Shown here in pieces: positions 1,442-45,029 of a DNA stretch of 45,879 bases. Under the pieces are notes generated by a model. The model did no database searches. It saw only the letters and a program-made list of their open reading frames with translations, and was not told the origin of the DNA. Origin of the DNA: an uncultured Bacteroidia bacterium (lineage in GTDB: Bacteria > Bacteroidota > Bacteroidia > Bacteroidales > Prolixibacteraceae); contig CAIVMQ010000069.1 of assembly GCA_903907075.1 (NCBI GenBank), forward strand, positions 1-45,879, in the 5' to 3' direction. Each line of letters starts with the position of its first letter. Positions within the stretch are counted from its first letter, which is position 1. The translations under genes and the position numbers were made by a program.

Positions 1442-2704
1442 TTATTGCGATTTTACTTCAGCGGCATCGACAAGTTTATAGATCTTGTCTGATCGGCGGA
1501 GCTTTTGGGCAATAGGAATCGAGCATAGTTCACCCTTCGAAACAAGATCAACAGGTTGTAATTCAACCCGTATCTCTTCGATCGTGGCGTAGATAACTCC
1601 TGTATTCGGTCCGTTGATCACGATTTTATCGCCGGGCTTTAAGGTGCCTGTCTCGAGTTTGACCTCTGCCACTCCCAGGTTTGAGAAGTAGTTGGTCACC
1701 TTGCCGGCATAGATCTTTTTCTGTGTGGCCAACGATCCATAGTTACTACTCCACTCTCCAAGACGTTGTCCAAGATAATAGCCATCCCAGAATCCGCGGT
1801 TAAAGACAGTTGCCAGTTTCGCATTCCAGCCTTCTATTTGCGGCTCGTCAAAAGTGCCGGTACAATAGGCATCGACAGCATCGTGGTAACATTCGACGAC
1901 TGTTTTGACATATTCGGGGCTGCGGGCTCGTCCTTCGATTTTGAGCACCGTGACTCCGGCGTCGAGTATTTTATTTAAAAAGTGTATGGTCTTAAGGTCT
2001 TTAGGCGACATGATGTATTCATTGTCGAGCTCCAGTTCGCGACCACTTTCCTTGTCGGTGACGATGTAGGCGCGTCGGCAACTTTGGTTGCAAGCCCCAC
2101 GATTGGCAGAGTTTAGGGTGTCGTGCAGCGAGAGGTAACACTTTCCTGAGGTAGCCATGCAGAGAGCACCATGAACGAAAATTTCAATCTTGACCAACTT
2201 GCCGGATGGTCCACAGAGGTTATTTTCTTTTATTTTTGATGTAATTGCAGCGATCTTATCGAGGTCCATCTCGCGTGCCAGCACCATCACATCAGCAAAT
2301 TGAGCATAGAATTTCACCGCTTCGTAATTGGTGATATTTACCTGTGTGGAGATGTGTACTTCGATTCCTAACTCTCTACAGTGCTGAATAACAGAGACGT
2401 CAGCAGCAATAATAGCTGTTATTCCGGCGTCACGCGCTGCGATTAAGACGTTTGCTAAAGTTGTAAACTCCTCGTCAAATATCTCTACGTTCACGGTAAG
2501 GTAGCTCTTTACAGCTGCTTCGTTACATCGGCGGCAGATCTCCTTGAGGTCTTCGAGGGTAAAGTTATTGGCTGAGCGTGCTCGCATGTTGAGGTGTTCA
2601 ACACCGAAATAGACAGATCCGGCACCGGCATCAATGGCGGCCATTAATGCTTCGTATGAGCCAATGGGTGCCATTATCTCAATTTCGTCTCGTCTCATTG
2701 TCAT
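1442..2704 (-). CDS. peptidase U32 family protein
   Basis: About 420 residues of the U32 (collagenase-like, YegQ/RlhA/TrhP) family. The N-terminal TIM-barrel region has IMAPIGSYEALMAAIDAGAGSVYFG. The U32 signature follows as EIFVHGALCMATSGKCYLS, with cysteines for a probable iron-sulfur site, and a second Cys pair lies in GACNQSCRRAY. A C-terminal beta-barrel follows (GDKIVINGPNTG). Characterised relatives (RlhA, TrhP) take part in hydroxylating C2501 of 23S rRNA or U34 of tRNA rather than in proteolysis, so an RNA-modification role is plausible but not decided here. I chose ATG 2704 because a TAnnTTTG promoter element at 2717-2724 lies over the upstream TTG alternative at 2719; ATG 2698 is also possible. 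Confidence 0.9.
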   Translation of the reverse strand: MTMRRDEIEIMAPIGSYEALMAAIDAGAGSVYFGVEHLNMRARSANNFTLEDLKEICRRCNEAAVKSYLTVNVEIFDEEFTTLANVLIAARDAGITAIIAADVSVIQHCRELGIEVHISTQVNITNYEAVKFYAQFADVMVLAREMDLDKIAAITSKIKENNLCGPSGKLVKIEIFVHGALCMATSGKCYLSLHDTLNSANRGACNQSCRRAYIVTDKESGRELELDNEYIMSPKDLKTIHFLNKILDAGVTVLKIEGRARSPEYVKTVVECYHDAVDAYCTGTFDEPQIEGWNAKLATVFNRGFWDGYYLGQRLGEWSSNYGSLATQKKIYAGKVTNYFSNLGVAEVKLETGTLKPGDKIVINGPNTGVIYATIEEIRVELQPVDLVSKGELCSIPIAQKLRRSDKIYKLVDAAEVKSQ

Positions 2705-2716
2705 CGTATATAGCCA

Positions 2717-2724
2717 CAAAGGTA
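2717..2724 (-). promoter_or_regulatory. -7 element of the U32 gene
   Basis: TACCTTTG on the minus strand matches the Bacteroidota TAnnTTTG consensus. It ends 12 bp before the ATG at 2704, so the leader would be very short. It decides against the upstream start at 2719. Confidence 0.6.
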
Positions 2725-2764
2725 AGATTATGCCGGTGTGTTACAAGAACTCAATTAGATTATG

Positions 2765-2772
2765 TATATTTG
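2765..2772 (+). promoter_or_regulatory. -7 element of the GH32 gene
   Basis: TATATTTG matches the TAnnTTTG consensus, 44 bp before the ATG at 2817. It is divergent from the U32 promoter about 40 bp away. No clear -33 TTTG was found. Confidence 0.55.
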
Positions 2773-2816
2773 GCATCACCTAAGTTTTACAGCGTTAAAT
2801 GCATAATCGCCTCAAT

Positions 2817-4262
2817 ATGAGATATCTGTTTTTATTTTTTTGGATCATTAGCAGTTTAATTGGTAATGGCTCTTCAAAACCTGACAAAAAGTATTATCAA
2901 GAGAAATACCGTCCTCAATACCATTTCACGCCCGAAAAAAACTGGATGAACGATCCCAATGGACTTGTATATTATGGGGGTGAGTATCATCTTTTTTATC
3001 AATATAATCCTAACGGGACGGAGCGGGGCTTTATGCATTGGGGACATGCGATAAGCAAGGATCTTGTTCATTGGGAACACCTCCCCATAGCGATCACTCC
3101 CGACGATAATTCAACAGATAAGAGTCGTTGTACCGCTTATTCGGGTTGTGCAATTGTGGATGAGAATAATACTGCGGGATTGCAGCAGGGGTCAGAAAAG
3201 ACCTTATTGATTTATTATACCAGTTGGGAGTGTGGTCAGCGTTTGGCTTATAGTACTGATAAAGGGAGGACCTGGAATAAGTATGCCAAAAATCCTCTTA
3301 TCCCGGCTGCAAATGATGATGCCCGTGATCCTAAAGTATTCTATCATAAGCCATCAGGGAACTGGATTATGGTTCTATACCGTAAGCCGGATAACGTGGA
3401 TGCCAATCAGGGGATTTCGATATTTACGTCTAAGGATTTAGTTACCTGGGAGCTACAGAGTCATGTGGTGGGATTTTTCGAATGTCCTGATCTTATTCAA
3501 TTACCGCTCGATGGGGATAAAGGGAAACAGAAATGGGTGCTGCTAGCAGGGAGTGGCGAATATAAAGTGGGGAGCTTTGATGGAAAAGTTTTTACCCCTG
3601 AATCGGCATTGAAAGTTCTTGATCATGGGAAGAATTTTTATGCAACACAAACCTGGTCGAACCATCCTGCAGGTAAAGTTGTTCAGTTGGCATGGATGCG
3701 AGGAGGCGAATATCCTGAAATGCCTTTTAATGGGCAGATGACTTTTCCGTGCGAACTTAGTTTGCGCACCACTAAATCGGGAATTACCTTATGTAAAAAG
3801 CCTATCGAAGCGCTGTCGCTGCTGCACGAAAAAGGAGTTGTGAAGAAGAAAAAAAATATTATCCCCGGATTAAAAGGGAATATCCTGAGTGGTGTTTCGG
3901 GTGGCTCAATCCATATTAAGGCGAAAATAAACCCGAGCTCATCCGACGGTTTTGGTTTTTTAATTCGCAATGGTAAAAAAGAGATTGGCACAGAGATTCG
4001 GTATGATACTGCAAAGAAGATGCTTGAGATCATGGGTAGCCGTGCTTTGGTAGAGCCCAAAGAGGGCATTCTCGAACTTGAGATATTAATTGACCGCTCA
4101 TCGATAGAGATCTTTGCCAACGGTGGTGAGGTGGTATTCAGTACGTGCTTTACCCCTGTTGAAAATGATGAGGAGTTGACATTTTGGACTCAGGGTGGTG
4201 AGGTGATGGTTGAGGAGATGGAGGCTTATGAGTTAAACTCTGCCTGGGGGGGTAAAAAATAA
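2817..4262 (+). CDS. secreted glycoside hydrolase family 32 (levanase/inulinase/invertase type)
   Basis: A 481-residue protein (from ATG 2817; an in-frame ATG at 2799 is less likely) with a hydrophobic signal peptide ending near NGSS. All three GH32 signature blocks are present. Numbered from ATG 2799 they are WMNDPNG with nucleophile Asp52, RDP at 176-178, and ECP at 228-230 with acid/base Glu228. A C-terminal beta-sandwich domain contains IDRSSIEIFANGG. The enzyme removes terminal fructose from levan, inulin or sucrose. There is no lipobox, so export to periplasm or outside by signal peptidase I is likely. No SusC/SusD pair, fructokinase or hybrid sensor lies next to it, which is unusual for Bacteroidota fructan utilisation. 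Exact substrate cannot be told. Confidence 0.94.
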   Translation: MRYLFLFFWIISSLIGNGSSKPDKKYYQEKYRPQYHFTPEKNWMNDPNGLVYYGGEYHLFYQYNPNGTERGFMHWGHAISKDLVHWEHLPIAITPDDNSTDKSRCTAYSGCAIVDENNTAGLQQGSEKTLLIYYTSWECGQRLAYSTDKGRTWNKYAKNPLIPAANDDARDPKVFYHKPSGNWIMVLYRKPDNVDANQGISIFTSKDLVTWELQSHVVGFFECPDLIQLPLDGDKGKQKWVLLAGSGEYKVGSFDGKVFTPESALKVLDHGKNFYATQTWSNHPAGKVVQLAWMRGGEYPEMPFNGQMTFPCELSLRTTKSGITLCKKPIEALSLLHEKGVVKKKKNIIPGLKGNILSGVSGGSIHIKAKINPSSSDGFGFLIRNGKKEIGTEIRYDTAKKMLEIMGSRALVEPKEGILELEILIDRSSIEIFANGGEVVFSTCFTPVENDEELTFWTQGGEVMVEEMEAYELNSAWGGKK

Positions 4263-32209: not shown

Positions 32210-33985
32210 TTACCGAGGTAGTGAAAAAAGGAATTCGAGGCCACCCTCTTTCAGTTTTCGGGCTGAAATTTCCCCCTTGAAACTAAGAATGGCATTTTTT
32301 ACAATTGCCAGTCCTAAACCAGTTCCCCCTTCCTTGCGTGATCGACCTGAATCGACTCTATAGAATCGCTCAAAAAGTCTCGCAAGATGTTCATCATCTA
32401 CACCGGGACCATTATCTGAGAACGAAAAATAGTGAAAAGAGTTGTCTTCGTGATATTTATTTATTGTAATGGTGATATTGTCACCTGCGTAGTTCACCGA
32501 ATTCTCCATGAGGTTTCTGAATACGGAGAAAATTAACGAATGATTGGCTTTAATAATCAGGTTCTCTTCGATGGAACATTCAACTTGAATATTTTTTAGT
32601 TTAATCTGATCACTAAAACTTTCAATAGCCTCATTGATCACTTTTTTCACTGGAACCTCTTCGCGGACATACAATTCAGAGTACTCCTCAATCTTATTTA
32701 ATAGCGATATGTCATTTACTAGTTGGGTTAGTCTCTCCGATTGATTATAGGCCTTTTCAATAAAATAGTGTTGTTTACTGATTTCAAGGTCTGGATTGTT
32801 TAATACAGTCTCTAAATACCCTTTAACAGACGATATTGGTGTCTTAAGCTCATGCGAAATATTAGAAGTGATTTGTTGTTTCATAATACTCCTGCGCATT
32901 AGCTGGGTCTGATCTGCGATTAGTATTTCAAAACTCTTATCCGGAAAGACAATGCATTGTATGTTAAAGTGAAACTTATCTTTTTGTATGGAGTATTCAA
33001 TACGAGGCAATTCATTGAGTTGGTAGGTTGTATCATCAGCAATGATCTGATTAATAAATTCGTTGATCTCGTAAAACTCTTCAGCAAGGAAGATGTTTTC
33101 AATCGCTGTTGTTGTCTCCTCTGAAATAATATTAATAAAGAAAATAAAATGGCTGTTGTTTAGAATTGTTTTTTTATCTGCAGAGAAAAATCCAATTCCC
33201 TCGTTTAATACAAAGAGATGACTGATGAGTTTCTCTTTTTCGAGGACGAGTTCTGTTTTTGTCTTACCTAATTGCTGATATAGTTGAATGATCTCACGGC
33301 TTATAAATCCAAGCTCGTCATTTGAAAATCGGGTGTCCTCATAAATGTTTATGGCCTCATTTCGTCTTATTTTGACGGCAAAATCTTTGAGTTTTGCTAT
33401 TGAGTCACCGATATGGTTGGCAATATAACTGAGTAGAAATCCGAATATGATGAATAAAAAGATGAAAAATGGGATGAAAACCCTGTCGGCTCTGAGAAAT
33501 GCCTTTAATTGAGTATCGTAAATAACGGCTGTTCGAATAACATAATGGTTATACGCCTTGGCATAATAGATGTAATTCTGATTGGTTGTTGAAGAATGTC
33601 GGATATTTTCTCCGAATTCATTTTGGAGAGCTTTTTGAATTTCTGGTCGTCCAATGTGATTTTCCATCGTCGCATATTCTTGTATTGTATTGTCATACAG
33701 TACTTTTCCAGATCTGTCAATCACTGTTATTCTGGCTTTGTCGGGAGGGATGAGTGATTTTAAACTGTCCAGGGTTGAAAAGTCACCCTTGGCATAGAGC
33801 GAATTATGGTCGATATATCGATTGGTTAGGTCTGCATATTCATTTAAGGTTGTCTCAAGCTGACCAATTCTAAAATGTTTTTCACGTTGGCTTTGGAATA
33901 GAATGATCGAAAGGGTGAAGATTCCGAAAAGAAGCAGGAAATAAATAAATAATTTCCACCTGATTGTTTTATTCTTAAATAGCAT
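32210..33985 (-). CDS. phoR: phosphate-regulon sensor histidine kinase
   Basis: 591 residues. TM1 (about 12-31), periplasmic sensor region (about 32-167, containing a PDC-like stretch KARITVIDRSGKVLYDN), TM2 (168-189), a HAMP-like linker, a PAS-like domain (255-360), HisKA with phospho-acceptor His378 in NISHELKTP, and HATPase with N-box NLMENSVNYA, DNGPGVD and GGTGLGLA. It phosphorylates the response regulator encoded 17 bp upstream. Inferred to sense phosphate status with the Pst transporter and PhoU, since it ends the pst-pho operon; periplasmic sensing makes it closer to Bacillus-type PhoR than to E. coli PhoR. Confidence 0.92.
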   Translation of the reverse strand: MLFKNKTIRWKLFIYFLLLFGIFTLSIILFQSQREKHFRIGQLETTLNEYADLTNRYIDHNSLYAKGDFSTLDSLKSLIPPDKARITVIDRSGKVLYDNTIQEYATMENHIGRPEIQKALQNEFGENIRHSSTTNQNYIYYAKAYNHYVIRTAVIYDTQLKAFLRADRVFIPFFIFLFIIFGFLLSYIANHIGDSIAKLKDFAVKIRRNEAINIYEDTRFSNDELGFISREIIQLYQQLGKTKTELVLEKEKLISHLFVLNEGIGFFSADKKTILNNSHFIFFINIISEETTTAIENIFLAEEFYEINEFINQIIADDTTYQLNELPRIEYSIQKDKFHFNIQCIVFPDKSFEILIADQTQLMRRSIMKQQITSNISHELKTPISSVKGYLETVLNNPDLEISKQHYFIEKAYNQSERLTQLVNDISLLNKIEEYSELYVREEVPVKKVINEAIESFSDQIKLKNIQVECSIEENLIIKANHSLIFSVFRNLMENSVNYAGDNITITINKYHEDNSFHYFSFSDNGPGVDDEHLARLFERFYRVDSGRSRKEGGTGLGLAIVKNAILSFKGEISARKLKEGGLEFLFSLPR

Positions 33986-34002
33986 AGTTGGTTATGAGTA
34001 TA

Positions 34003-34689
34003 TCAGATTTCAAAATAGTAGCCAAATCCGGGCTTGTTGCGGATATAGCTACCATATTCTTCCATCTTTCTTCTTAATCGGGTCATATTGACATCTACTG
34101 TCCGGTCGGAAACAATTACATCACTCTCCCAGACTCTACGTAAGATCTCTTCACGAGAGAATATTCTTCCGGGTGTTTTTACAAGTAAGTAGATAATCTC
34201 ATATTCTTTACGGGTCAGGTCGATTTTCTTATCTCCCAGAACTAACCGTTTTGTCTCAAGGTCAATGGCTAGATTGCCCATGCTGAGCACTGTTGAGGCA
34301 ACTTCAGCTGGGGATACCTTTGCCCGCTTTAGGACTGCCTTAACACGCGCTTGAAGCTCCTTTATAGAGAATGGCTTGATGATATAGTCATCGGCACCGA
34401 GATTAAATCCGGTGAGCATATCGTTTTCGGCATCTCGTGCAGTGAGAAAGATGATTGGCACATCAAGAAGCATCTCTTTTCTGATCCGTTGGGCCAGACC
34501 AAACCCCGATATTTTTCCCATCATCACATCCAATATCATTAGATGATATCCGGTAAGGTCTCGTTTTAATGCCTCCTCTGCCGAAAAGGAAGTATCGACA
34601 TGATAACCCTCACTTTCAAGATTAAATTGTAGAATTTCATTGAGATCCTCCTCGTCTTCAACAACGAGAACCCGAAATTTCTCACTCAT
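34003..34689 (-). CDS. phoB: OmpR-family response regulator (PhoB-type)
   Basis: 228 residues. Receiver domain with acidic pair in VVEDEEDLN, phospho-acceptor Asp54 (MILDVMMG) and Lys in IIKPFSIKEL; the C-terminal OmpR winged helix has DLTRKEYEIIYLLVKTPGRIFSREEIL and RTVDVNMTRLRRKM. The genomic place next to PhoR and the Pst system identifies it as the PhoB/PhoP-like regulator that should bind the GTAAC boxes at 40936-40974 and 42598-42637. Phosphorylated by the downstream kinase. Confidence 0.93.
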   Translation of the reverse strand: MSEKFRVLVVEDEEDLNEILQFNLESEGYHVDTSFSAEEALKRDLTGYHLMILDVMMGKISGFGLAQRIRKEMLLDVPIIFLTARDAENDMLTGFNLGADDYIIKPFSIKELQARVKAVLKRAKVSPAEVASTVLSMGNLAIDLETKRLVLGDKKIDLTRKEYEIIYLLVKTPGRIFSREEILRRVWESDVIVSDRTVDVNMTRLRRKMEEYGSYIRNKPGFGYYFEI

Positions 34690-34834
34690 AGTTTCTCTTA
34701 CTTAGTGTAATAATTCTAGTGGATTATAAGACATTCCGTTATTTTTTAGAATCCACAAATGGGTAAAAATTTACTAATTCGAATTTCTATTCTCCAATTA
34801 CGAACGCGGTGACTATATTGTTTATGCAAGAATC

Positions 34835-35509
34835 TTAGTTGTTCTCGATATGTTTTTTGTGCTTTACAATTTCGCCATTCACAACAAAAATAATTGATTC
34901 TGCTATGTTGGTCGAATAGGATGCCACACGTTCGAATAGATTAATGATGATTAAGATATTGGCTGCAACAACGACCACTTCCGACTGGTGCATCATCTCG
35001 CTGAGTATTGATGAACCTATTTGTTCACACTCATCTTTTATAAGTTCAGCTTTGTTCATAACCTGATTAGCAAATTTCAGATCGTGAGTGTTTACCAATT
35101 CAACAACGTCGCCAAAAAGGTCTGTTGTTTTTAATCCTATTGAATCAATTTTAAGATCCTCGACAAGTTGTTGGTAATCCTGAAGTGGCTCAATCCGTTT
35201 TGCGATGTTGCAGGCATGATCACCAATCCGCTCAAGGTCATTGTTGATCTTTAAAGCAGAGATAATATACCTTAAATCGGAGGCCACAGGTTGCTGAAGG
35301 GCAAATATTTTCTGACATAACTTATCGATTTTGACATCCAGATTATTAATTGCATGGTCATTTTTAACCACTGCATTTGCCAAAATTAGATCTCCCTTCT
35401 TCAGGGCAATCACCACATCGATTAATTGCTGGTTTACCTGTGTGCACATCTGTTTTACTTTGTGCGCCAGCTTATCAAGTTCTGAATCAAATATTCTATA
35501 GTTTTCCAT
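34835..35509 (-). CDS. phoU: phosphate-transport accessory regulator PhoU
   Basis: 224 residues, all-helical. Two PhoU repeats with E/D-rich motifs: LDKLAHKVKQMCTQVNQQLIDVVIALKKGD and, in the second half, HDLKFANQVMNKAELIKDECEQIGSSILSEM. PALINDLERIGDHACNIAKRI gives the metal-binding signature (DLERIGDHA). PhoU links the Pst transporter with PhoR and keeps the kinase quiet when phosphate is sufficient. Located between pstB and phoB; 145 bp before phoB hold no obvious promoter box. Confidence 0.95.
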   Translation of the reverse strand: MENYRIFDSELDKLAHKVKQMCTQVNQQLIDVVIALKKGDLILANAVVKNDHAINNLDVKIDKLCQKIFALQQPVASDLRYIISALKINNDLERIGDHACNIAKRIEPLQDYQQLVEDLKIDSIGLKTTDLFGDVVELVNTHDLKFANQVMNKAELIKDECEQIGSSILSEMMHQSEVVVVAANILIIINLFERVASYSTNIAESIIFVVNGEIVKHKKHIENN

Positions 35510-35536
35510 GTTCTAAATGTATAGATTTATTTAGTA

Positions 35537-36295
35537 TCAACCAAAACGTCCGGTAATGTAGTCCTCTGTTTGTTTTCGTTCCGGATTGGTAAATATTTTC
35601 TTTGTCTTGTCATATTCAATGAGTTCCCCCAGATAAAAAAATGCTGTATTATCACTAATACGTGCCGCTTGTTGCATATTGTGTGTGACAATTACGATCG
35701 TATATTTTTCTTTGAGTTGTACGATAAGCTCCTCTATTTTTGCTGTTGACAAGGGGTCTAGGGCACTTGCAGGCTCATCCATGAGGACTATTTCAGGATT
35801 TACAGCTAATGTGCGGGCGATACACAGTCGTTGTTGTTGACCTCCTGATAGACCAAGTGCCGAATCACCAAGACGATCTTTTACTTCATCCCAGATCGCC
35901 GCATTTTTGAGTGCTGTCTCAACGATTTCGTCGAGCTGATTTTTATTGTTTATCCCATTTATTTTAGGACCATAGGCTATATTCTCATAGATTGATTTTG
36001 CAAACGGGTTTGATTTCTGAAATACCATCCCCACCTTTTTTCTCAGGTTGACTACATCAATATTTTTATCGTAGATGTTAATCGCGTCAATCATCACTTT
36101 ACCTTCAATCTTAACACCATCAATCAGATCATTCATCCGGTTCAGACTCCTAAGAAAAGTCGATTTTCCGCATCCTGATGGACCAATAAAAGCAGTTACC
36201 TTCTTTTCGGGTATCTGAATGGAGATGTCCTTAAGGGCCATTTTGCCGCTGTAATAAAGGTACATGTTTTCTGTATGGATCTTTTCAAGTATCAT
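35537..36295 (-). CDS. pstB: phosphate ABC transporter ATPase PstB
   Basis: 252 residues from ATG 36295, 2 bp after the pstA stop; an overlapping TTG at 36301 is the alternative. Walker [11 protein letters not shown]-loop in [14 protein letters not shown] signature LSGGQQQR, Walker [14 protein letters not shown], and switch His in [10 protein letters not shown]. The typical PstB C-terminal half ends EDYITGRFG. It drives high-affinity phosphate import with PstA and PstC. Confidence 0.97.
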
Positions 36296-36297
36296 AA

Positions 36298-37203
36298 TCA
36301 ACTATTTTTCTTTTTTCTTATTCGATATCTTAATATGACGGCCGACATGTTTAGGGTGAATGTCAGTAAAAGTAGTACACACGTGGTACCAAATTGGATA
36401 GGTAAGGTTTGATCGACATTGGCCGATTGAGTAGTCAGCACATAAATATGATATCCTAACACCATAAACTGATCACCAAGTCCGGGTAAGGTAGCCAGGT
36501 AATATGCCGCTCCTGTAAATAGGATCGGGGCCACTTCGCCTGCTCCACGGCTTACCGCCAGGATTGTGCCCGTCATAATTCCTGATAATGATCCGGGAAG
36601 GACAACCTTCCATATCGTCTGCCATTTTGTGGCTCCTAATGCCAGACTCGCAGCCCTTAGTTCCTGCGGAACAGTCTTTAGTGCCTCTTCCACAGAAACT
36701 ATAACTACCGGCAAAGTCAATAAAGCCATGGTAAGACTTGCCCATAGCAGATTGGGTTGTCCCCATTTTAATTCACCACCGAAGAATGCTCCGTCGATAT
36801 GTGTACCCACAAATTTTATAAAGAAACCTAATCCGAAGAGCCCATAAATAATTGAAGGGATAACAGCTAATGTGCGCACTGCAAATCGGATCGTTTTGGC
36901 TATTATGGAGTTCTCTTTTGCATATTCGGTCAAATAGATGGCAGTGATCGTTCCAAAGGGTACAGCAGCTATCGACATGATAATTACCAGCAAGGCAGTT
37001 CCGTAAAGAGCAGGAAAAATCCCCCCTTTGGTCATCCCATCAGTAGGGAAACTTGTGAGGAATTCCCAGGATAATTGATCCTTTCCACCTATGAAAATCA
37101 CGGTTAACATAACCACGACAATAGTGACAATCAATATCGCCGAGAATAAGGTAATTCCCTCAATGACAATTCCCTTAATATTTTTACGTAGGCTATTTAT
37201 CAT
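36298..37203 (-). CDS. pstA: phosphate ABC transporter permease PstA
   Basis: 301 residues, six predicted membrane helices. The permease EAA loop is present ([33 protein letters not shown], summarised by [12 protein letters not shown]). Its ATG overlaps the pstC stop as ATGA. The product binds PstB through that loop and forms the channel with PstC. Confidence 0.96.
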
Positions 37204-38453
37204 TTTCCCTGTATTCTTTTCATGAGTTTTCCTTTGACATAAAATTCAGCGATTGCATTTATGACGAAGGTGAAAATAAATAACATTGATCCGATAAGAA
37301 ATAAGACATTATAGTGGGTGTCGCCGAAGACAACCTCAGCCATCTCTGCTCCGATGGTGGCAGCCAGGGTACGCACCGAATCAAATGGATTAAGGGTCAT
37401 TAAAGCGGCATTTCCTGTGGCCATAAGGGCAATCATCGTTTCTCCGAAGACCCTGCCGATACCGAGTAGGATTGCGGCAAATATCCCAGGCGTTGCAGCT
37501 GGCAAAATAACGAAAAATGCAGTTTGCCATTTCGAGGCTCCCAGGGCAAGACTAGCCTCGTAGAACGATTTTGGCACTGCTGTTAATGCATCTTCTGTAA
37601 TGGTGAAAATAATAGGTATGGCCGCAATGCCCATTGCGATTCCCCCCACAAACGAATTTAATCTGGTTTCGTAATGAAAGAAATTCTGCAGAAATGTTGC
37701 CAGTACCATCAAAGCGAAAAATCCGATTACTACAGATGGGAAACCGGCTAATAGCTCAATGGTAGGTTTGATAATCTCTTTCATCTTCTTGGTTGCAAAA
37801 ACGGCAGTGTATAGTGCAGCCAAAATAGCCAGTGGAGCCGCAAAAAGCATCGAGATTAACGTAATTTTAAAGGTCCCGATTATCAAAGCCAGAATGCCAT
37901 ACCTTGGTTTGTCTGATACAGGTACCCAATCCTTGGTAATTAATGTTTTTATTGCGCTGCGATTATCATCAGTTCCGCTGCCTGCATTTACGGTATACGT
38001 AGATTTTGAAGCTGAAATAGTATCCTGATCCTGGGAGGTCTGAACACCATATTGTTCCTGAACCTGCTGCTTATCTGTTACTTCACCGTAGGTTTCCTGA
38101 ACACCCTCTTTCGCAGAAGTATCAACTACTGACCCATAGGTTTCCTGAGTCTGGGCAACAGGAGTCTGATCTGTTACACTACCGTAAGTCTCCTGACTAT
38201 CCTTAACCGTTTGTACAGCAGCCTCCTTTTTTTCTCCGTTAGAGCTATTAAAAATTGGGAAGGCTTCTCTAAAGACAAAAGTAAAGATCAGCACGATAAT
38301 GGTAATCGATAGGAAGGCCACTCCTTTGATAACTTTTTCGGCCACATAATCACCGAGTCTAAATTTTTTACGGGTAATGTCAATCAAGCCGGAATCGTGG
38401 CTCTCACTGTCAGAATAGTTGGATGACTTACCTTTGTTTTTTTTTCTTCCCAT
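37200..38453 (-). CDS. pstC: phosphate ABC transporter permease PstC with repeat-bearing periplasmic insert
   Basis: 417 residues from ATG 38453 (an upstream TTG at 38474 is unlikely). TM1 is at about 44-62. It is followed by an approximately 120-residue hydrophilic insert before TM2 that contains four copies of a QETYG(S/E)V-type repeat. The rest is a normal permease core: AAPLAILAALYTAVFA, TIELLAGFPSVVIGFFALMVL, the EAA loop EDALTAVPKSFYEASLALGASKW, and GRVFGETMIALMATGNA. It forms the inner-membrane phosphate channel with PstA. The insert is the odd feature; see findings. Confidence 0.95.
   Translation of the reverse strand: MGRKKNKGKSSNYSDSESHDSGLIDITRKKFRLGDYVAEKVIKGVAFLSITIIVLIFTFVFREAFPIFNSSNGEKKEAAVQTVKDSQETYGSVTDQTPVAQTQETYGSVVDTSAKEGVQETYGEVTDKQQVQEQYGVQTSQDQDTISASKSTYTVNAGSGTDDNRSAIKTLITKDWVPVSDKPRYGILALIIGTFKITLISMLFAAPLAILAALYTAVFATKKMKEIIKPTIELLAGFPSVVIGFFALMVLATFLQNFFHYETRLNSFVGGIAMGIAAIPIIFTITEDALTAVPKSFYEASLALGASKWQTAFFVILPAATPGIFAAILLGIGRVFGETMIALMATGNAALMTLNPFDSVRTLAATIGAEMAEVVFGDTHYNVLFLIGSMLFIFTFVINAIAEFYVKGKLMKRIQGK
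38022..38195 (-). repeat. QETYG repeats within pstC
   Basis: Four degenerate copies of about 13-16 residues: QETYGSVTDQTPVA, QETYGSVVDTSAKEGV, QETYGEVTDKQQV, QEQYGVQTSQD. They sit in the periplasmic loop between TM1 and TM2 of PstC. At DNA level the repeated segment reads TAGGTTTCCTGA or TAAGTCTCCTGA on the plus strand. Confidence 0.85.
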
Positions 38454-38498
38454 TGTAGTTTGATCTATTGGCAATTTTTAGGAGATTTAAAACGAAGG

Positions 38499-38532
38499 AA
38501 GCGAATAACTTCTGTGAAGAAATTATTCGCTT
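38499..38532 (-). promoter_or_regulatory. stem-loop between pstS and pstC
   Basis: A 10-bp stem, AAGCGAATAA at 38499-38508 with TTATTCGCTT at 38523-38532, extended inside by CTTC/GAAG. In the mRNA it lies 45 nt behind the pstS stop with no T-run. It fits a partial terminator or RNA-stabilising hairpin that keeps the binding-protein message more abundant than the permease message. Confidence 0.55.
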
Positions 38533-38577
38533 TTGAATCGTTTGTATAAGATTTGTTTTCACTCCATTCTTGTTTAT

Positions 38578-39417
38578 TTATTTAACTGGGAAATAACCCA
38601 TGTCGACAACTAGTTTTTGTCCTTCTGCACTTAGAATCCAGTCGATATATTTCTTTGTTTCGCCTGTAGGTCTATTTCGTAAGTACATATAAAGGTAACG
38701 TGTAATTGGGTAATCACCAGTTTTGATCGATTCAGCAGTTGGAATAAATGCCGGGCTGTTGTCATCTTTCTTTACTTTGCAAAGAATTATTCCTTCTGCA
38801 TAGGCAGCGCCTCCATAACCAATACCATACGTATCTTTTTTAACTGCATTTACAACAGCTGCTGTTCCGGGTAATGTTTGACAGCTTGTAGCATAGTCAC
38901 CCTTCACAACATTCTCCTGGAAGAATACATAGGTTCCTGAACTGTTCTCTCTACCATAAAGTTTGATTGACTGATCATCACCGCCAACTTCTTTCCAGTT
39001 TGTAATTTCGCCTCTAAAGATTTTTCCTAGCTGTGCAATCGATAATTCTGTCACTTTGCTTGCTGTATTTAGATAAATTGTAATACCATCTTTCGCACAA
39101 GCAACTTCAACACCAAGTGTATTGTATCTGGCTTTCAGTTTCTCTTTTTCGGTTTGTTTCATTTTACGACTAGCATTGGCAATATCAGTTGCACCGTTAA
39201 TCAATGCCGATATACCTACTCCTGAACCACCACCTGTAACCTGAATAGATACATTCGAAGTGGTTTTCATATATTCTTCAGCCCATTTCTGCGCCAGGAT
39301 TACCAAAGTATCTGAGCCCTTAACTGTGATCCGTTCTGGCGCTGCAGTAAAAGCAAAGCATATAACACCAAGCATAACTGCAAGGATCATAGATTTTAAT
39401 AAGTTGAATCTTTTCAT
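38578..39417 (-). CDS. pstS: phosphate-binding protein PstS
   Basis: 279 residues with a signal peptide (MKRFNLLKSMILAVMLGVICFAFTAA). The phosphate-binding segments are KGSDTLV, TGGGSGVGISALINGATDIANASRKM, RENSSGTYVFF, and GIGYGGAAY. No lipobox; a soluble periplasmic protein. It delivers phosphate to PstCAB. No Pho box lies in the 94-bp gap upstream, so its transcription probably comes from the porin promoter. Confidence 0.96.
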   Translation of the reverse strand: MKRFNLLKSMILAVMLGVICFAFTAAPERITVKGSDTLVILAQKWAEEYMKTTSNVSIQVTGGGSGVGISALINGATDIANASRKMKQTEKEKLKARYNTLGVEVACAKDGITIYLNTASKVTELSIAQLGKIFRGEITNWKEVGGDDQSIKLYGRENSSGTYVFFQENVVKGDYATSCQTLPGTAAVVNAVKKDTYGIGYGGAAYAEGIILCKVKKDDNSPAFIPTAESIKTGDYPITRYLYMYLRNRPTGETKKYIDWILSAEGQKLVVDMGYFPVK

Positions 39418-40917: not shown

Positions 40918-40974
40918 CAAAGATTCCATATCGATGTTACATTTCTGTTACAGAACAATTAAATGATGTTACAA
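40918..40974 (-). promoter_or_regulatory. PhoB box cluster and promoter of the porin-pst-pho operon
   Basis: On the minus strand: TTGTAAC (40974-40968), CTGTAAC (40953-40947) and ATGTAAC (40942-40936), with start distances 21 and 11 bp. After a 10-bp gap comes AATCTTTG (40925-40918), one base off TAnnTTTG. The porin ATG is 29 bp downstream. Direct repeats with an 11-bp period immediately upstream of the -10 region are the hallmark of Pho boxes. A fourth GTTACAA at 40914-40920 overlaps the -7 and is probably fortuitous. Confidence 0.8.
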
Positions 40975-41094: not shown

Positions 41095-41122
41095 GCACTT
41101 GAAAATTTTCGAATACTACAGG

Positions 41123-42541
41123 ATGCTAAAAGTTAAATTTTTAAATTATCTATCCTCATCCTCGTTTGTGAAGCAGACCCCAAAAGGTGTCTATACCTCT
41201 ATTCCGAATGAGTTGATTTTAGATAAAGATGATTTTGGAACTGATTTTCAGTGGGGTGTGGCTACAGCTGCCTATCAGATTGAGGGAGCATGGGATCATC
41301 ACGGGAAAGGGGAATCGGTATGGGATCGTTTTACCGCCAATCCGGGTAATGTTAAGGACAAAACCCATGGCAGGGAGGCTACCGATTTTTATAACAATTA
41401 CACCTCAGACTTAGAGCTGTTAAAGGAACTTAACTTTAAGAATTTCCGCTTCTCATTCTCTTGGCCCCGAATTCTTCCTGATGGGATTGGTACTGTTAAT
41501 GAAGCGGGTATTGACTATTACAATAGGCTTATTGATAAATGTCTTGAACTTGGTATAGAACCTTGGGCAATGCTTTATCATTGGGATTTGCCTCAGAAAT
41601 TAGAAGACCAGGGTGGATGGGCGAACCGAGATATCATAAATTGGTTCTCTGAATATACCGAGTTGGTAACTAAAAGATTTGGCGATCGCATTCACCATTG
41701 GATGGTATTAAATGAACCTGCCAGCTTTACTACGCTGGGTTATCTCTCGGGTATGCACGCTCCTCAACAAAGTAGTCTCGATAAATTTCTTGCCTCAGTA
41801 CATCATGCTTCACTGTGTCAGTCGGCTGGAGGAAGAATTATCCGGGCCAATGTTTCTAATAGCCATATTGGAACCTCTTTCTCCTGTGCCCCGGTGAAAC
41901 CACATAAGGGGTCAAAAATCCATCTTCGGGCGGCTCAACGCCTTGATGTGATGCTTAATCGGCTGTTTATAGAACCCTCTCTGGGCATGGGTTATCCCTG
42001 CAAGGAGCTCCCCTTTCTGCGTAAGATAGATAAGTTTATCCTGCCTGAAGATCATGCGAATTTAAAATTCGATTTTGATTTCATTGGAATACAGAACTAT
42101 TTTAAGGTTGTAAGTAAACCCTCATTAATCCCTTTTATCTGGGCTAACCGAATCAAGCCGGCTCGCAATGCGGAGTTAACAGAGATGGGCTGGGAGGTCT
42201 CCCCTGAGGGGATTTACGAGATCTTGATGCAATTTTCAAAATACAATATCAAGGAGTTGATCGTAAGCGAAAATGGTGCCGCATTCCCCGATCAGCTTAG
42301 TGACGGTCGCGTACATGATCAGCAGCGGATAAGCTTTTTTCAACGTTACCTTAGCCAGATCTTGCGTGCCAAAAAAGATGGCGCTAATGTAACCGGGTAT
42401 TTTGTATGGACCTTCGTCGATAATTTTGAATGGAATGAAGGTGTCCGTCCCAGATTCGGTATTGTCTACAACGATTTTGCTACACAGAAACGGACAATCA
42501 AAGATTCCGGATTCTGGTTTAAAGAGCTTCTTGAGAAATAA
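41123..42541 (+). CDS. glycoside hydrolase family 1 beta-glycosidase
   Basis: 472 residues from ATG 41123, no signal peptide, so cytoplasmic. Motifs: FQWGVATAAYQIEGAWDHHGKGESVWDRF, acid/base Glu198 in LNEPASF, nucleophile Glu383 in LIVSENGAAF, and VWTFVDNFEWNEGVRPRFGIVYNDF with the aglycone/sugar-binding tryptophans. It hydrolyses beta-gluco/galacto/fucosides. A 45-residue extension precedes the barrel. It stands between two Pho-boxed promoters, but its own promoter carries no box at the usual position. Confidence 0.94.
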   Translation: MLKVKFLNYLSSSSFVKQTPKGVYTSIPNELILDKDDFGTDFQWGVATAAYQIEGAWDHHGKGESVWDRFTANPGNVKDKTHGREATDFYNNYTSDLELLKELNFKNFRFSFSWPRILPDGIGTVNEAGIDYYNRLIDKCLELGIEPWAMLYHWDLPQKLEDQGGWANRDIINWFSEYTELVTKRFGDRIHHWMVLNEPASFTTLGYLSGMHAPQQSSLDKFLASVHHASLCQSAGGRIIRANVSNSHIGTSFSCAPVKPHKGSKIHLRAAQRLDVMLNRLFIEPSLGMGYPCKELPFLRKIDKFILPEDHANLKFDFDFIGIQNYFKVVSKPSLIPFIWANRIKPARNAELTEMGWEVSPEGIYEILMQFSKYNIKELIVSENGAAFPDQLSDGRVHDQQRISFFQRYLSQILRAKKDGANVTGYFVWTFVDNFEWNEGVRPRFGIVYNDFATQKRTIKDSGFWFKELLEK

Positions 42542-42597: not shown

Positions 42598-42655
42598 TTG
42601 TAACAGATATTTAATTGTTTTGTAACACTCCCGTAACTTCTTCATGGTTATTTAG
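42598..42655 (+). promoter_or_regulatory. PhoB box cluster upstream of the metallophosphoesterase gene
   Basis: TTGTAAC at 42598-42604 and 42620-42626, CCGTAAC at 42631-42637, with start distances 22 and 11 bp. A 10-bp gap leads to TTATTTAG at 42648-42655, a weak -7 element with two mismatches to TAnnTTTG. The intervening block TTTAATTGTT is shared with the porin promoter. The arrangement matches that promoter almost base for base, and the ATG follows at 42677. Confidence 0.72.
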
Positions 42656-42676
42656 TGCCTATTAATTTATTCGTTA

Positions 42677-43522
42677 ATGGAGAATAAGAGAGTCGTTGAA
42701 CTGGTGGTTATTTCTGATGTCCATCTCGGAACAAAGGGATCTCAGGCAACTGAGTTATTGAAATATCTAAAGAGTATCAAGCCTAAAACATTGATATTAA
42801 ACGGTGATATCATCGATATCTGGCAATTCAAAAAACGATACTTTCCCAAGAGTCATTTAAAAGTCGTTAAACATCTGATCGGTCTTGCCTCTGATCGCTG
42901 TCAGGTCTATTATATCACCGGAAATCATGACGAGATGTTCAGAAGGTTTAGCGGTATGAAGATCGGTAAACTGCGCATTCTTAATGATCTCAAGCTCACC
43001 CTTGATGGTAAGAAAGTCTGGATCTTCCATGGAGATGTTTTCGATGTGGTGATGCAATATTCCAAATGGCTCTCTAAACTAGGAGCAATTGGTTACGATT
43101 CCTTAATCTGGTTGAATACTCAAGTTAACCGTTTTGCAAGATTTTTTAAGTTGGAGCCTGTCTCATTTTCAAAAAAAATAAAAGAATCAGTCAAGGGTGC
43201 CGTAAAGTTTATTAATGCTTTCGAGGATACAGTGGCTTCAGTTGCCGTTCGGAAAGGTTTCGATACTGTTGTTTGTGGTCATATTCATAAGCCAGAAATT
43301 AGAGAAATCAAAGTTGATGCGAATACTGTAACCTATCTTAATTCTGGCGACTGGATCGAAAATCTTTCTGCTTTGGAATATAATGAAGGTGAATGGCGGA
43401 TATTTAATTTCAGAACTGATTTTATTGATCATTCGGAGAATGGTGAAGCTGAACATGAAGCAATGGTGGATGTGGAGGTAAAGGATTTATTTAATGATAT
43501 GCTTGTCGATTTCCACAATTAG
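42677..43522 (+). CDS. PlcP/LpxH-like metallophosphoesterase
   Basis: 281 residues of the calcineurin-like phosphoesterase family (COG2908). All metal motifs are present: SDVHLGT with Asp14 and His16, NGDIID with Asp44, GNHDE with Asn83 and His84, FHGDVFD with His118, and CGHIHKP with His202 and His204. The pattern SDVHLGTKG, NGDIID, GNHDE, HGDVFDVV, NRFAR and GHIHKPEIRE resembles PlcP of Sinorhizobium (phospholipase-C-like, degrades phospholipids to diacylglycerol under phosphate limitation), and also UDP-2,3-diacylglucosamine hydrolase LpxH. The Pho box and the adjacent glycosyltransferase favour PlcP. Soluble or membrane associated; no TM helix. Confidence 0.85.
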   Translation: MENKRVVELVVISDVHLGTKGSQATELLKYLKSIKPKTLILNGDIIDIWQFKKRYFPKSHLKVVKHLIGLASDRCQVYYITGNHDEMFRRFSGMKIGKLRILNDLKLTLDGKKVWIFHGDVFDVVMQYSKWLSKLGAIGYDSLIWLNTQVNRFARFFKLEPVSFSKKIKESVKGAVKFINAFEDTVASVAVRKGFDTVVCGHIHKPEIREIKVDANTVTYLNSGDWIENLSALEYNEGEWRIFNFRTDFIDHSENGEAEHEAMVDVEVKDLFNDMLVDFHN

Positions 43523-43579
43523 GTTTTTTAGTGATAAACAGATTAAACAACAATTTAACGATCAATAAAATACGCGTAT

Positions 43580-44647
43580 ATGAAGATTCTATATGCAATT
43601 CAAGGTACAGGAAACGGTCATATTAGCCGTGCACGTGAGATTATTCCTTATCTGCAGGAATATTGTCAGTGTGATATCTTAGTCAGTGGTACACAATGTG
43701 ATGTAGAGCTTGATGTTCCTGTAAAATACCGTTTTAAAGGGTTGAGTTTTTGGTTTGGGAAGAATGGTGGTATAGATATGTGGAATACCTCTATTAATGC
43801 TAACTTACCGAACCTGAGACGCGAAATAGCAGAATTAAATGTGGAAGATTACGATTTTGTAATCAACGATTTCGAGCCTGTCTCGGCATGGGCCTGCTAC
43901 AAGAAAAAAGTTCCATGCATTAGCTTGAGCCATCAAGGATCGTTACTCAGCAAGCAAACTCCTATACCTCTTGAAAAAGACTATTTTGGCCAATTTATTC
44001 TGCGTAACTATGCGCCTGCAATGATGCACTTTGGTTTTCATTTTCAGCCCTATGATAAAAACATTTTCACTCCTGTTATTCGGAAGCAGGTTCGGGAGAG
44101 TGAGATAGAAGAACTTGATTATTATACGGTCTATTTGCCCTCTTTTGATGACAAAAAACTGATAAAGAAATTATCCTATTTTACGAATTCCAATTGGCAC
44201 GTATTTTCAAAAAGGGCAAAGGAGGAGATTCAGATTGGCAATATTCTGATTCGTCCTATCACCAATGATGCCTTCGTAGCAGATATGGCAAAATCAAAAG
44301 GGGTGTTTTGTGGCGCCGGATTTGAAACTCCTGCAGAGGCATTATTCCTGGGCAAGAAGCTAATGGTCATCCCTATGAAAGGTCAGTATGAGCAGCAATG
44401 TAATGCTTTCGCACTGGAGAAAATGGGTGTTCCTGTCATTAAAAGCCTTAAGCGCCGTCACTTTCCAAAGATTGCTCAGTGGTTAGATTCTGAAGTGAAA
44501 GTTGAGGTGTATTATCCGGATATCACACGAATAATTATTCGGAAACTCTTCGAAGTTAATGTGCAGCGAGTACTGAAAAATAATAATTGGGATGAAGCAT
44601 ATGAACTAACACTGAAGCCACCTGATCTTCAGAAAATTGGGGTGTAG
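43580..44647 (+). CDS. MurG/MGDG-synthase-like glycosyltransferase (MJ1255/VC2487-type)
   Basis: 355 residues, GT-B fold. N-terminal glycine loop IQGTGNGHISRAREIIPYL (GxGxGHxxRA). The C-terminal donor-binding region has CGAGFETPAEALFLGKKLMVIPMKGQYEQQCNAFALEKMG, with the conserved E-T-x-AEA and GQYEQ pattern of MurG and diacylglycerol glycosyltransferases. It starts 57 bp after the metallophosphoesterase gene with no promoter between, so it should be Pho-controlled. Inferred product: glycosyl-diacylglycerol. Related MJ1255-type proteins have no settled substrate. Confidence 0.82.
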   Translation: MKILYAIQGTGNGHISRAREIIPYLQEYCQCDILVSGTQCDVELDVPVKYRFKGLSFWFGKNGGIDMWNTSINANLPNLRREIAELNVEDYDFVINDFEPVSAWACYKKKVPCISLSHQGSLLSKQTPIPLEKDYFGQFILRNYAPAMMHFGFHFQPYDKNIFTPVIRKQVRESEIEELDYYTVYLPSFDDKKLIKKLSYFTNSNWHVFSKRAKEEIQIGNILIRPITNDAFVADMAKSKGVFCGAGFETPAEALFLGKKLMVIPMKGQYEQQCNAFALEKMGVPVIKSLKRRHFPKIAQWLDSEVKVEVYYPDITRIIIRKLFEVNVQRVLKNNNWDEAYELTLKPPDLQKIGV

Positions 44648-44648
44648 A

Positions 44649-45029
44649 TTAGGTTCTGCGTCTTTTTATTAAATGGCTGATGATAAAAAGAGTGCCAATT
44701 ATAATAAATGGCATATTTATCAATAGAATCACCATTAAGCTTGCTCCGACTGAGTGATTTCTACTGTAATTCAGGGAATAAATAAATGGGGCTGTGACTA
44801 ATCCGATTGATCCAATAATAATACCACCTAAGAACTCCCTTTTCCAGGCAATTATTAGCGCCGCTATTAATACAAAAGAGGGGATGTTATGCATCAAAAA
44901 GGCTAGAATTTGTTGACCAAAAGGTACGCCAGACTCGAAAACATCCAGCGAGAACATACTGATAAACAAAATGGCCAGGATACAGAGATCCCGCGGAATC
45001 CACAGCAGAATTTTTTCCAGAGTTGTCAT
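44649..45029 (-). CDS. small multi-spanning membrane protein, DUF7670-like
   Basis: 126 residues with four predicted TM helices (LCILAILFISMFSL, IPSFVLIAALIIAW, LGGIIIGSIGLVTAPFIYSL, LMVILLINMPFIIIGTLFIISHLI). The helix pattern resembles a small Bacteroidota membrane family, which I recall as DUF7670 without certainty. It converges on the glycosyltransferase gene, 1 bp between stops. No function can be assigned. Confidence 0.75.
   Translation of the reverse strand: MTTLEKILLWIPRDLCILAILFISMFSLDVFESGVPFGQQILAFLMHNIPSFVLIAALIIAWKREFLGGIIIGSIGLVTAPFIYSLNYSRNHSVGASLMVILLINMPFIIIGTLFIISHLIKRRRT

Follow-up and report, generated by a model that had tools for sequence, protein, structure and literature searches.

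In Alphaproteobacteria, the phosphoesterase PlcP cleaves phospholipids when phosphate is low and an adjacent glycosyltransferase, Agt, makes glycolipids from the resulting diacylglycerol. For the corresponding pair in Pseudomonas aeruginosa, PlcP (PA3219) and Agt1, there is support from mutants and lipidomics, and the accessible part of that study reports that characterised PlcP enzymes supply diacylglycerol (PMC8528852). Among the Bacteroidota, the PlcP protein Fjoh_4577 and the glycosyltransferase Fjoh_0541 of Flavobacterium johnsoniae are phosphate-induced and listed under lipid remodelling in the excerpted text of PMC8115612, with values of 8.59 and 5.42 under phosphate depletion that we read as log2 fold changes. 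In the flavobacterium Dokdonia, plcP is induced by phosphorus starvation and aminolipids are formed, and marine isolates carry plcP upstream of various glycosyltransferases, according to sections of PMC4796936. Since parts of such a module have been published for other Bacteroidota (PMC8115612, PMC4796936), we regard the kind of module described here as already known.

The stretch of DNA that we analysed (the window; 45,879 nucleotides) makes up contig C69 in an assembly of 3.59 Mb and 133 contigs that is 92% complete. Near its right end lies a gene for a metallophosphoesterase (MPE; 42677..43522, + strand; 281 aa; PF12850/PF00149), a predicted phospholipase C that would release diacylglycerol. 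A glycosyltransferase gene follows (GT; 43580..44647, + strand; 355 aa; PF13528), the product of which is a predicted lipid glycosyltransferase. The first-pass annotation had described these two genes as a candidate phosphate-starvation module. On re-reading the sequence, its observation stands where it was placed, including the start of the GT 57 bp past the MPE stop. The annotation had not included a third gene that often accompanies the pair, a GH1 beta-glycosidase-like gene upstream on the same strand (41099..42541, with an alternative ATG start at 41123; PF00232 and TIGR03356). Divergent from these genes is a unit that begins with a phosphate-selective porin (Porin_O_P, PF07396; 39512..40888, - strand) and continues into a pstS, pstC, pstA, pstB, phoU, phoB, phoR cluster (32210..39417, - strand; named by reading translated ORFs). 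Its ORF order is shared with the congener stretches L272, L273, L274 and L280, as far as these extend. In the PstC-like ORF (37200-38474), QETYG-like motifs recur within a long N-terminal stretch. A DUF7670 protein (44649-45029), convergent to the GT, recurs at that place in several congeners.

The locus shares with the PlcP-Agt systems of Alphaproteobacteria and Pseudomonas a PlcP-type MPE, an adjacent GT, a Pho box and a phosphate-starvation context. It differs from them in its PF13528/MJ1255-like GT without detectable Agt similarity, its GH1 partner and its Bacteroidota host. F. johnsoniae, also of the Bacteroidota, likewise has a PlcP and a GT tied to lipid remodelling, but there Fjoh_4577 is an orphan gene and Fjoh_0541 a pf04101 protein in the phoBR cluster, a distinction drawn from the description in the excerpted paper (PMC8115612). 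We consider it probable that the window holds a PhoB-controlled module of the PlcP kind, in which the MPE-GT pair would turn phospholipids into glycosyl-diacylglycerols and the GH1 enzyme would act on the product. What the analysis shows is the family placement, a fold prediction, the gene linkage, and the promoter motif and its conservation; PhoB binding, the enzymatic activities, the acceptor, the sugar, the anomer and the role of GH1 are inferred.

The first question for such a model is whether the phosphoesterase is PlcP or LpxH. The MPE carries the motifs SDVHLG, NGDIID, GNHD, FHGD and GHIH, and is 41% identical to P. aeruginosa PlcP, 36% to its Sinorhizobium homologue and 23% to Escherichia coli LpxH, with pairwise scores of 185, 154 and 45 bits, respectively. 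By comparison, the separate LpxH-type protein encoded in the same genome scores 77 bits against E. coli LpxH and 53 against PlcP. The phylogeny of COG2908-type proteins that the first-pass annotation had called for (47 rows) split 37 PlcP-side rows, which include the MPE, P. aeruginosa PlcP and the Sinorhizobium homologue, from 10 LpxH-side rows, which include E. coli LpxH and the genome's own LpxH-type protein, with support of 100/99. The program warned of long branches in this tree, and the pairwise scores agree with it. The PlcP reference rows were themselves identified indirectly: L167 was taken as the P. aeruginosa PlcP-Agt1 pair because of its plcP-agt1 layout, and L165 as Sinorhizobium PlcP because L165 and L167 are 46.6% identical and the accessible text of PMC8528852 gives 46%. 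Against two LpxH equivalog models the MPE scored 66.1 bits (NF003743, cut-off 134) and 55.1 bits (cut-off 190.35). Since the genome's own LpxH-type protein also fell short of both cut-offs, with 98.9 and 89.6 bits, the LpxH bit score alone is a weak criterion and the tree decides. The tree, the bit scores and the presence of a separate LpxH-type protein rule out that the MPE is LpxH; the annotation had held that grouping with LpxH in a genome with no other LpxH would overturn its reading, and we found the opposite on both counts. Judged from its sequence, the MPE is almost certainly a PlcP-type enzyme, and its predicted activity is the cleavage of phospholipids to diacylglycerol.

A broader version of the LpxH idea would make the pair an additional unit of LpxH-LpxB type, serving lipid A or some other envelope glycolipid derived from UDP-diacylglucosamine. 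LpxH and PlcP are distantly related and are annotated alike in records, and LpxB and MurG share the GT-B fold. The placement of the MPE with PlcP, its scores of 185 bits to PlcP and 45 to E. coli LpxH, the phosphate-type promoter described below and the presence of both a separate LpxH-type protein and a separate LpxB in the genome all speak against this idea, and we rate it as highly improbable. The genome's own LpxB likewise rules out that the GT is LpxB-like.

The predicted model of the GT adopts a GT-B fold and matches MurG and UGT structures in fold searches. Among the known enzymes close to it, MurG and MGDG synthase (GT28) and UGTs (GT1), MurG shares only 14% identity with the GT, whose PF04101 score of 18.3 bits lies below the cut-off of 22. 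MGDG synthase was absent among the 50 matches listed in each of the two fold searches, an absence that does not count against kinship with that enzyme, and PF06925 had no match in the window GT (in the GT of L122, a second type of pair, it scored 20.2 bits, below the cut-off of 25). The assignment to the MJ1255/VC2487 type in the first-pass annotation holds in part. The GT is clearly related to TIGR00661 (157.9 bits, E 3.6e-46), but by the curated cut-off of 195.9 bits it is not a member. The companion statement that the GT is not Agt-like was borne out, as comparison with the Agt-type GTs of L166 and L167 gave E values of 1.5 and 7.4, that is, no detectable similarity; orthology to Agt is thereby ruled out. 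The GT of F. johnsoniae is probably of another type than the window GT. The closest named relatives of the window GT among the best 80 of 583 confirmed GT loci come from a Bacteroidia bin without further classification (84%) and from a bin of Mariniphaga (Prolixibacteraceae; 78%), so the source is probably a Prolixibacteraceae-like organism. Synthesis of a glycolipid by the window GT is likely; the aminolipids, rather than glycolipids, that Dokdonia forms in the available sections of PMC4796936 count against this reading.

The MPE promoter has features of phosphate control. Upstream of the MPE, GTAAC boxes start at 42600, 42622 and 42633, with spacings of 22 and 11 bp, and TTATTTAG (42648..42655, + strand) begins 10 bp past the last of them. 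The Bacteroidota -7 consensus is TAnnTTTG. TTATTTAG, read in the sequence and aligned in position in congeners, fits it only loosely. TTAAT at 42611 occupies the 22-bp gap, so that the array really consists of four 11-bp units (42600..42637, + strand; starts 42600, 42611, 42622 and 42633). A matching Pho-box-like array lies in the divergent porin-pst promoter (40936..40972, - strand), with GTAAC 5' ends at 40972, 40951 and 40940, spacings of 21 and 11 bp, and the block TTTAATTGTT in common with the MPE promoter. The three boxes with their -7-like element and the mirrored arrangement at porin-pst had both been reported in the first-pass annotation, and both are present in the sequence as described. 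The MPE promoter carries PhoB-type 11-bp direct repeats in common with pst, a feature of Pho regulon members.

We asked how often such arrays occur by chance. In the window, KTAAY-N6-KTAAY-N6-GTAAY with at most one mismatch has three matches, two of them overlapping, each of them exact and located in one of these two promoters; shuffled sequences gave a mean of 0.28, and 0 of 100 shuffles reached 3. Across the 3.59-Mb assembly the strict pattern TTAAT-N6-GTAAY-N6-GTAAY has only two exact copies, at the MPE and porin-pst promoters. With up to one mismatch there are four matches, and since a backwards control has three, matches at one mismatch do not by themselves exceed background. One of these (L257:1501-1527) lies about 310 bp 5' of a Na/Pi cotransporter-like ORF (1837-3027; named from sequence); beside the other (L258) no such neighbour was recognised.

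The array is kept in relatives. Among 17 loci of the genus and family, the window's own included, the box is exact in 14 and within one mismatch in 15, a result that 0.3% of shuffles reach. Information content was 1.83 bits in the core against 0.98 for the spacers, and 0.41 and 0.80 in the 5' and 3' flanks, respectively; the rows were aligned by the motif itself, a choice that favours the core, and one genome contributes two identical copies to the 17. In longer stretches from 14 relatives, the relaxed pattern was found 5' of the MPE in every one (12 exact, 2 with one mismatch). Five of the 14 share the divergent porin-pst neighbour, and in each of them the porin-pst side also has an exact box; seven have no porin or pst genes among the neighbours examined and keep the MPE box all the same; in the remaining two, contig ends lie too near to judge. 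The array is therefore conserved also where pst does not adjoin. In L019, of the same family, the MPE promoter has no clear box. As a side observation, exact Pho-box-like repeats also stand in L282:8797-10000, 5' of a 124-aa protein that looks secreted and of a porin-like ORF (named by eye).

Outside the genus, we examined 46 MPE-GT operons, which remain of the best 80 of 583 loci after removal of 30 (23 without MPE, 6 non-adjacent, 1 with a short upstream region) and of 4 genus loci. The relaxed pattern occurred with at most two mismatches in 27 of the 46 (1.9 expected) and with at most one in 9 (0.1 expected), and the strict pattern with at most two in 16 (0.26 expected); 19 of these 46 operons have no box at two mismatches or fewer. 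Of 27 class loci, 8 come within two mismatches of the strict pattern, against 0.4% of shuffles. Solitary GT genes have a box at this level in 7 of 15 cases (0.7 expected). Control promoters gave 0 of 9 for unlinked GH1 genes and 1 of 8 for LpxH-type genes. Taken together, these motif data make phosphate control of the MPE-GT pair very likely.

The pairing of MPE and GT extends through the class. We searched a sample of 247 Bacteroidia genomes, our own included, counting a GT as close at 38% identity or more and an MPE at 48% or more. Among the 246 other genomes, 82 have a close GT, 104 a close MPE and 76 both (odds ratio 62, uncorrected for kinship), and in 72 of the 76 the MPE lies directly upstream of the GT, with gaps of -19 to 178 nt by match coordinates. 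A close MPE without a close GT occurs in 28 of the 104, and a GT without an MPE in 6 of the 82. These counts exclude genomes whose sole match was weak, 16 for the GT and 22 for the MPE; in 11 of the latter 22 a GT-type gene adjoins the MPE. Within the genus, the adjacent pair is present in 14 of 17 congeners and both genes are missing in the other 3. At 15 loci with no GT beside the MPE (12 fetched for this purpose plus L117, L124 and L132), no immediate neighbour matched the GTs tested. The L117 genome has a GT some 50 kb from its MPE, and L124, L267 and L268 have a gene weakly similar to Agt farther from the MPE. Fixed neighbours beyond GH1 can be dismissed: in 40 long loci, no gene cluster other than GT (36 loci), MPE (32) and GH1 (19) was present in more than 6, and PhoB-like regulators made up the largest of the rest. 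A response-regulator-like gene lies directly 3' of the GT in L128:11546-12262 and in L161, which represent one lineage.

Other arrangements were also found. L115:9670-13256 combines a PlcP homologue with a different, PF04101-type GT, which matches the window GT only distantly (E about 1e-4), beside phoR- and phoB-like genes. This layout resembles that reported for F. johnsoniae, with its pf04101 GT and PhoBR operon, in the excerpts of PMC8115612. L152, from a distant genome, has the same divergent arrangement of porin-pst and MPE-GT as the window, with a small ORF between porin and MPE, and with GH1 downstream. In L190 the porin-pst genes are convergent, 3' of MPE-GT-GH1, and two ORFs separate them. 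The bin L180, which bears the title Bifidobacterium breve, contains a Bacteroidota-type MPE-GT-GH1 set and is probably mislabelled or contaminated.

A second, more distant type of MPE-GT pair (L122:9168-12045) is followed by a diacylglycerol-kinase-like gene (PF00781), and we count it in favour of diacylglycerol as the acceptor. The competing acceptor is ceramide, from which the module would make phosphorus-free glycosphingolipids at the expense of the ceramide phospholipids that some Bacteroidota make. Such lipids are produced by some Bacteroides, Porphyromonas and Prevotella species, and phosphate-starved Caulobacter forms a novel glycosphingolipid by PhoB-regulated glycosyltransferases, as described in the available part of PMC6445935. 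Set against this, besides the L122 gene order, is the diacylglycerol reportedly supplied by characterised PlcP enzymes in the accessible text of PMC8528852. We consider a ceramide acceptor quite unlikely.

The GH1 gene is the third element of the locus. Its product scores 452.8 bits against PF00232 and 516 bits against TIGR03356 (cut-off 478.5), and the residues that we take to matter, both catalytic glutamates and those of subsite -1, are identical in 45 of 45 aligned GH1 proteins. An inverting GT-B enzyme would give beta-glycosides, which are substrates of GH1 enzymes. Among the best 80 of 583 GT loci, which are the named ones, GH1 lies directly downstream of the GT in 44 and upstream within 2.5 kb in 7, with the MPE between in 4 of these 7, as in the window. 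GH1 is thus a neighbour of the GT or of the pair in 51 of these 80 loci; the MPE also adjoins the GT in 51, and 37 loci have the three genes together. In the class sample, GH1 is directly 3' of the GT in 22 of 82 GT genomes, with gaps of 31-283 nt by match coordinates. In the window genus it lies upstream of MPE-GT at 10 of 14 congener loci.

These linked GH1 proteins are of more than one kind. In a tree of 52 sequences, the downstream-linked type, together with three Flavobacterium GH1s, is separated (SH-aLRT 99) from a second group that comprises the window genus, as one clade (100), and nine unlinked GH1s, which are a biased choice, having been taken as the class-sample sequences closest to the window GH1. 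Because the tree splits the linked sequences in this way, two separate GH1 groups adjoin the same genes. The N-termini of the nine unlinked proteins are hydrophobic and signal-like, with a best 11-residue hydropathy of 1.5 to 2.6. Of the 29 downstream-linked proteins, 26 have values of 0.3 or less and the other 3 of 1.0 to 1.4, and the window GH1 lies between the two types at 0.9. The notion that one GH1 type is always the downstream one is complicated by the congener L281, where a GH1 with a signal-like N-terminus that groups with the unlinked proteins lies downstream of the GT, with one ORF between. As judged from the trees, the simpler reading is that GH1 joined the locus separately more than once; a single joining followed by later losses may also be compatible with them.

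Whether this recurrent neighbour acts on lipids can be argued both ways. GH1 could be a frequent neighbour and nothing more, a general beta-glucosidase outside lipid metabolism. On that account one would point to the 31 of 72 class genomes with GH1 (our own excluded) that lack the GT, the 19 of 41 with both that keep them apart, the 4 of 14 congener loci where the upstream GH1 is missing and the 29 of the best 80 named loci without an adjoining one. In addition, the box in the window genus lies between GH1 and the MPE, so that GH1 need not share their transcript and is perhaps transcribed separately. The close 3' placement in the class sample, the adjacency in 51 of the best 80 named loci and the linkage of two separate GH1 groups argue against mere neighbourhood, which we hold to be rather unlikely, and we lean towards a role for GH1 in the lipid pathway. 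A known enzyme with which to compare it is plant SFR2, a galactolipid:galactolipid galactosyltransferase that belongs to GH1 and remodels glycolipids, according to the available text of PMC4011751. Unlike the window GH1, SFR2 works in the chloroplast, and together with a homologue from rice it forms a distinct GH1 lineage, a comparison made by description from part of PMC1781453. By analogy, GH1 enzymes could work in an SFR2-like manner throughout the class, moving sugar between the glycolipids made by PlcP and GT to give di- or oligoglycosyl lipids with no additional nucleotide sugar consumed, and with different GH1 groups recruited repeatedly. We offer this as a speculative and doubtful suggestion.

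Collectively, the model would run as follows. When phosphate becomes scarce, PhoB would bind the 11-bp repeats and switch on the MPE-GT pair together with porin-pst. The PlcP enzyme would strip the phosphate-bearing head group from membrane phospholipids and leave diacylglycerol, onto which the GT-B enzyme, in place of Agt, would transfer the sugar of a nucleotide sugar to form a phosphorus-free glycolipid. GH1 would then trim, recycle or extend the resulting beta-glycolipid. Novelty appears to lie in the GT family and its tight linkage throughout the class, in the GH1 partner and in the box: a literature search in which few subscription journals were covered turned up no paper that we recognised on this GT family in remodelling, on the GH1 link or on the box. 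If the model is correct, a large part of the class Bacteroidia would save phosphate by means of glycolipids, using an enzyme family not known for that role under a definable Pho box. Cultivable strains would be available in which to hunt for the lipid, since cultivated relatives such as Maribacter spongiicola (L212) and Zobellia uliginosa (L186) carry the three genes, and GH1 would be an unsuspected partner in bacterial membrane remodelling.
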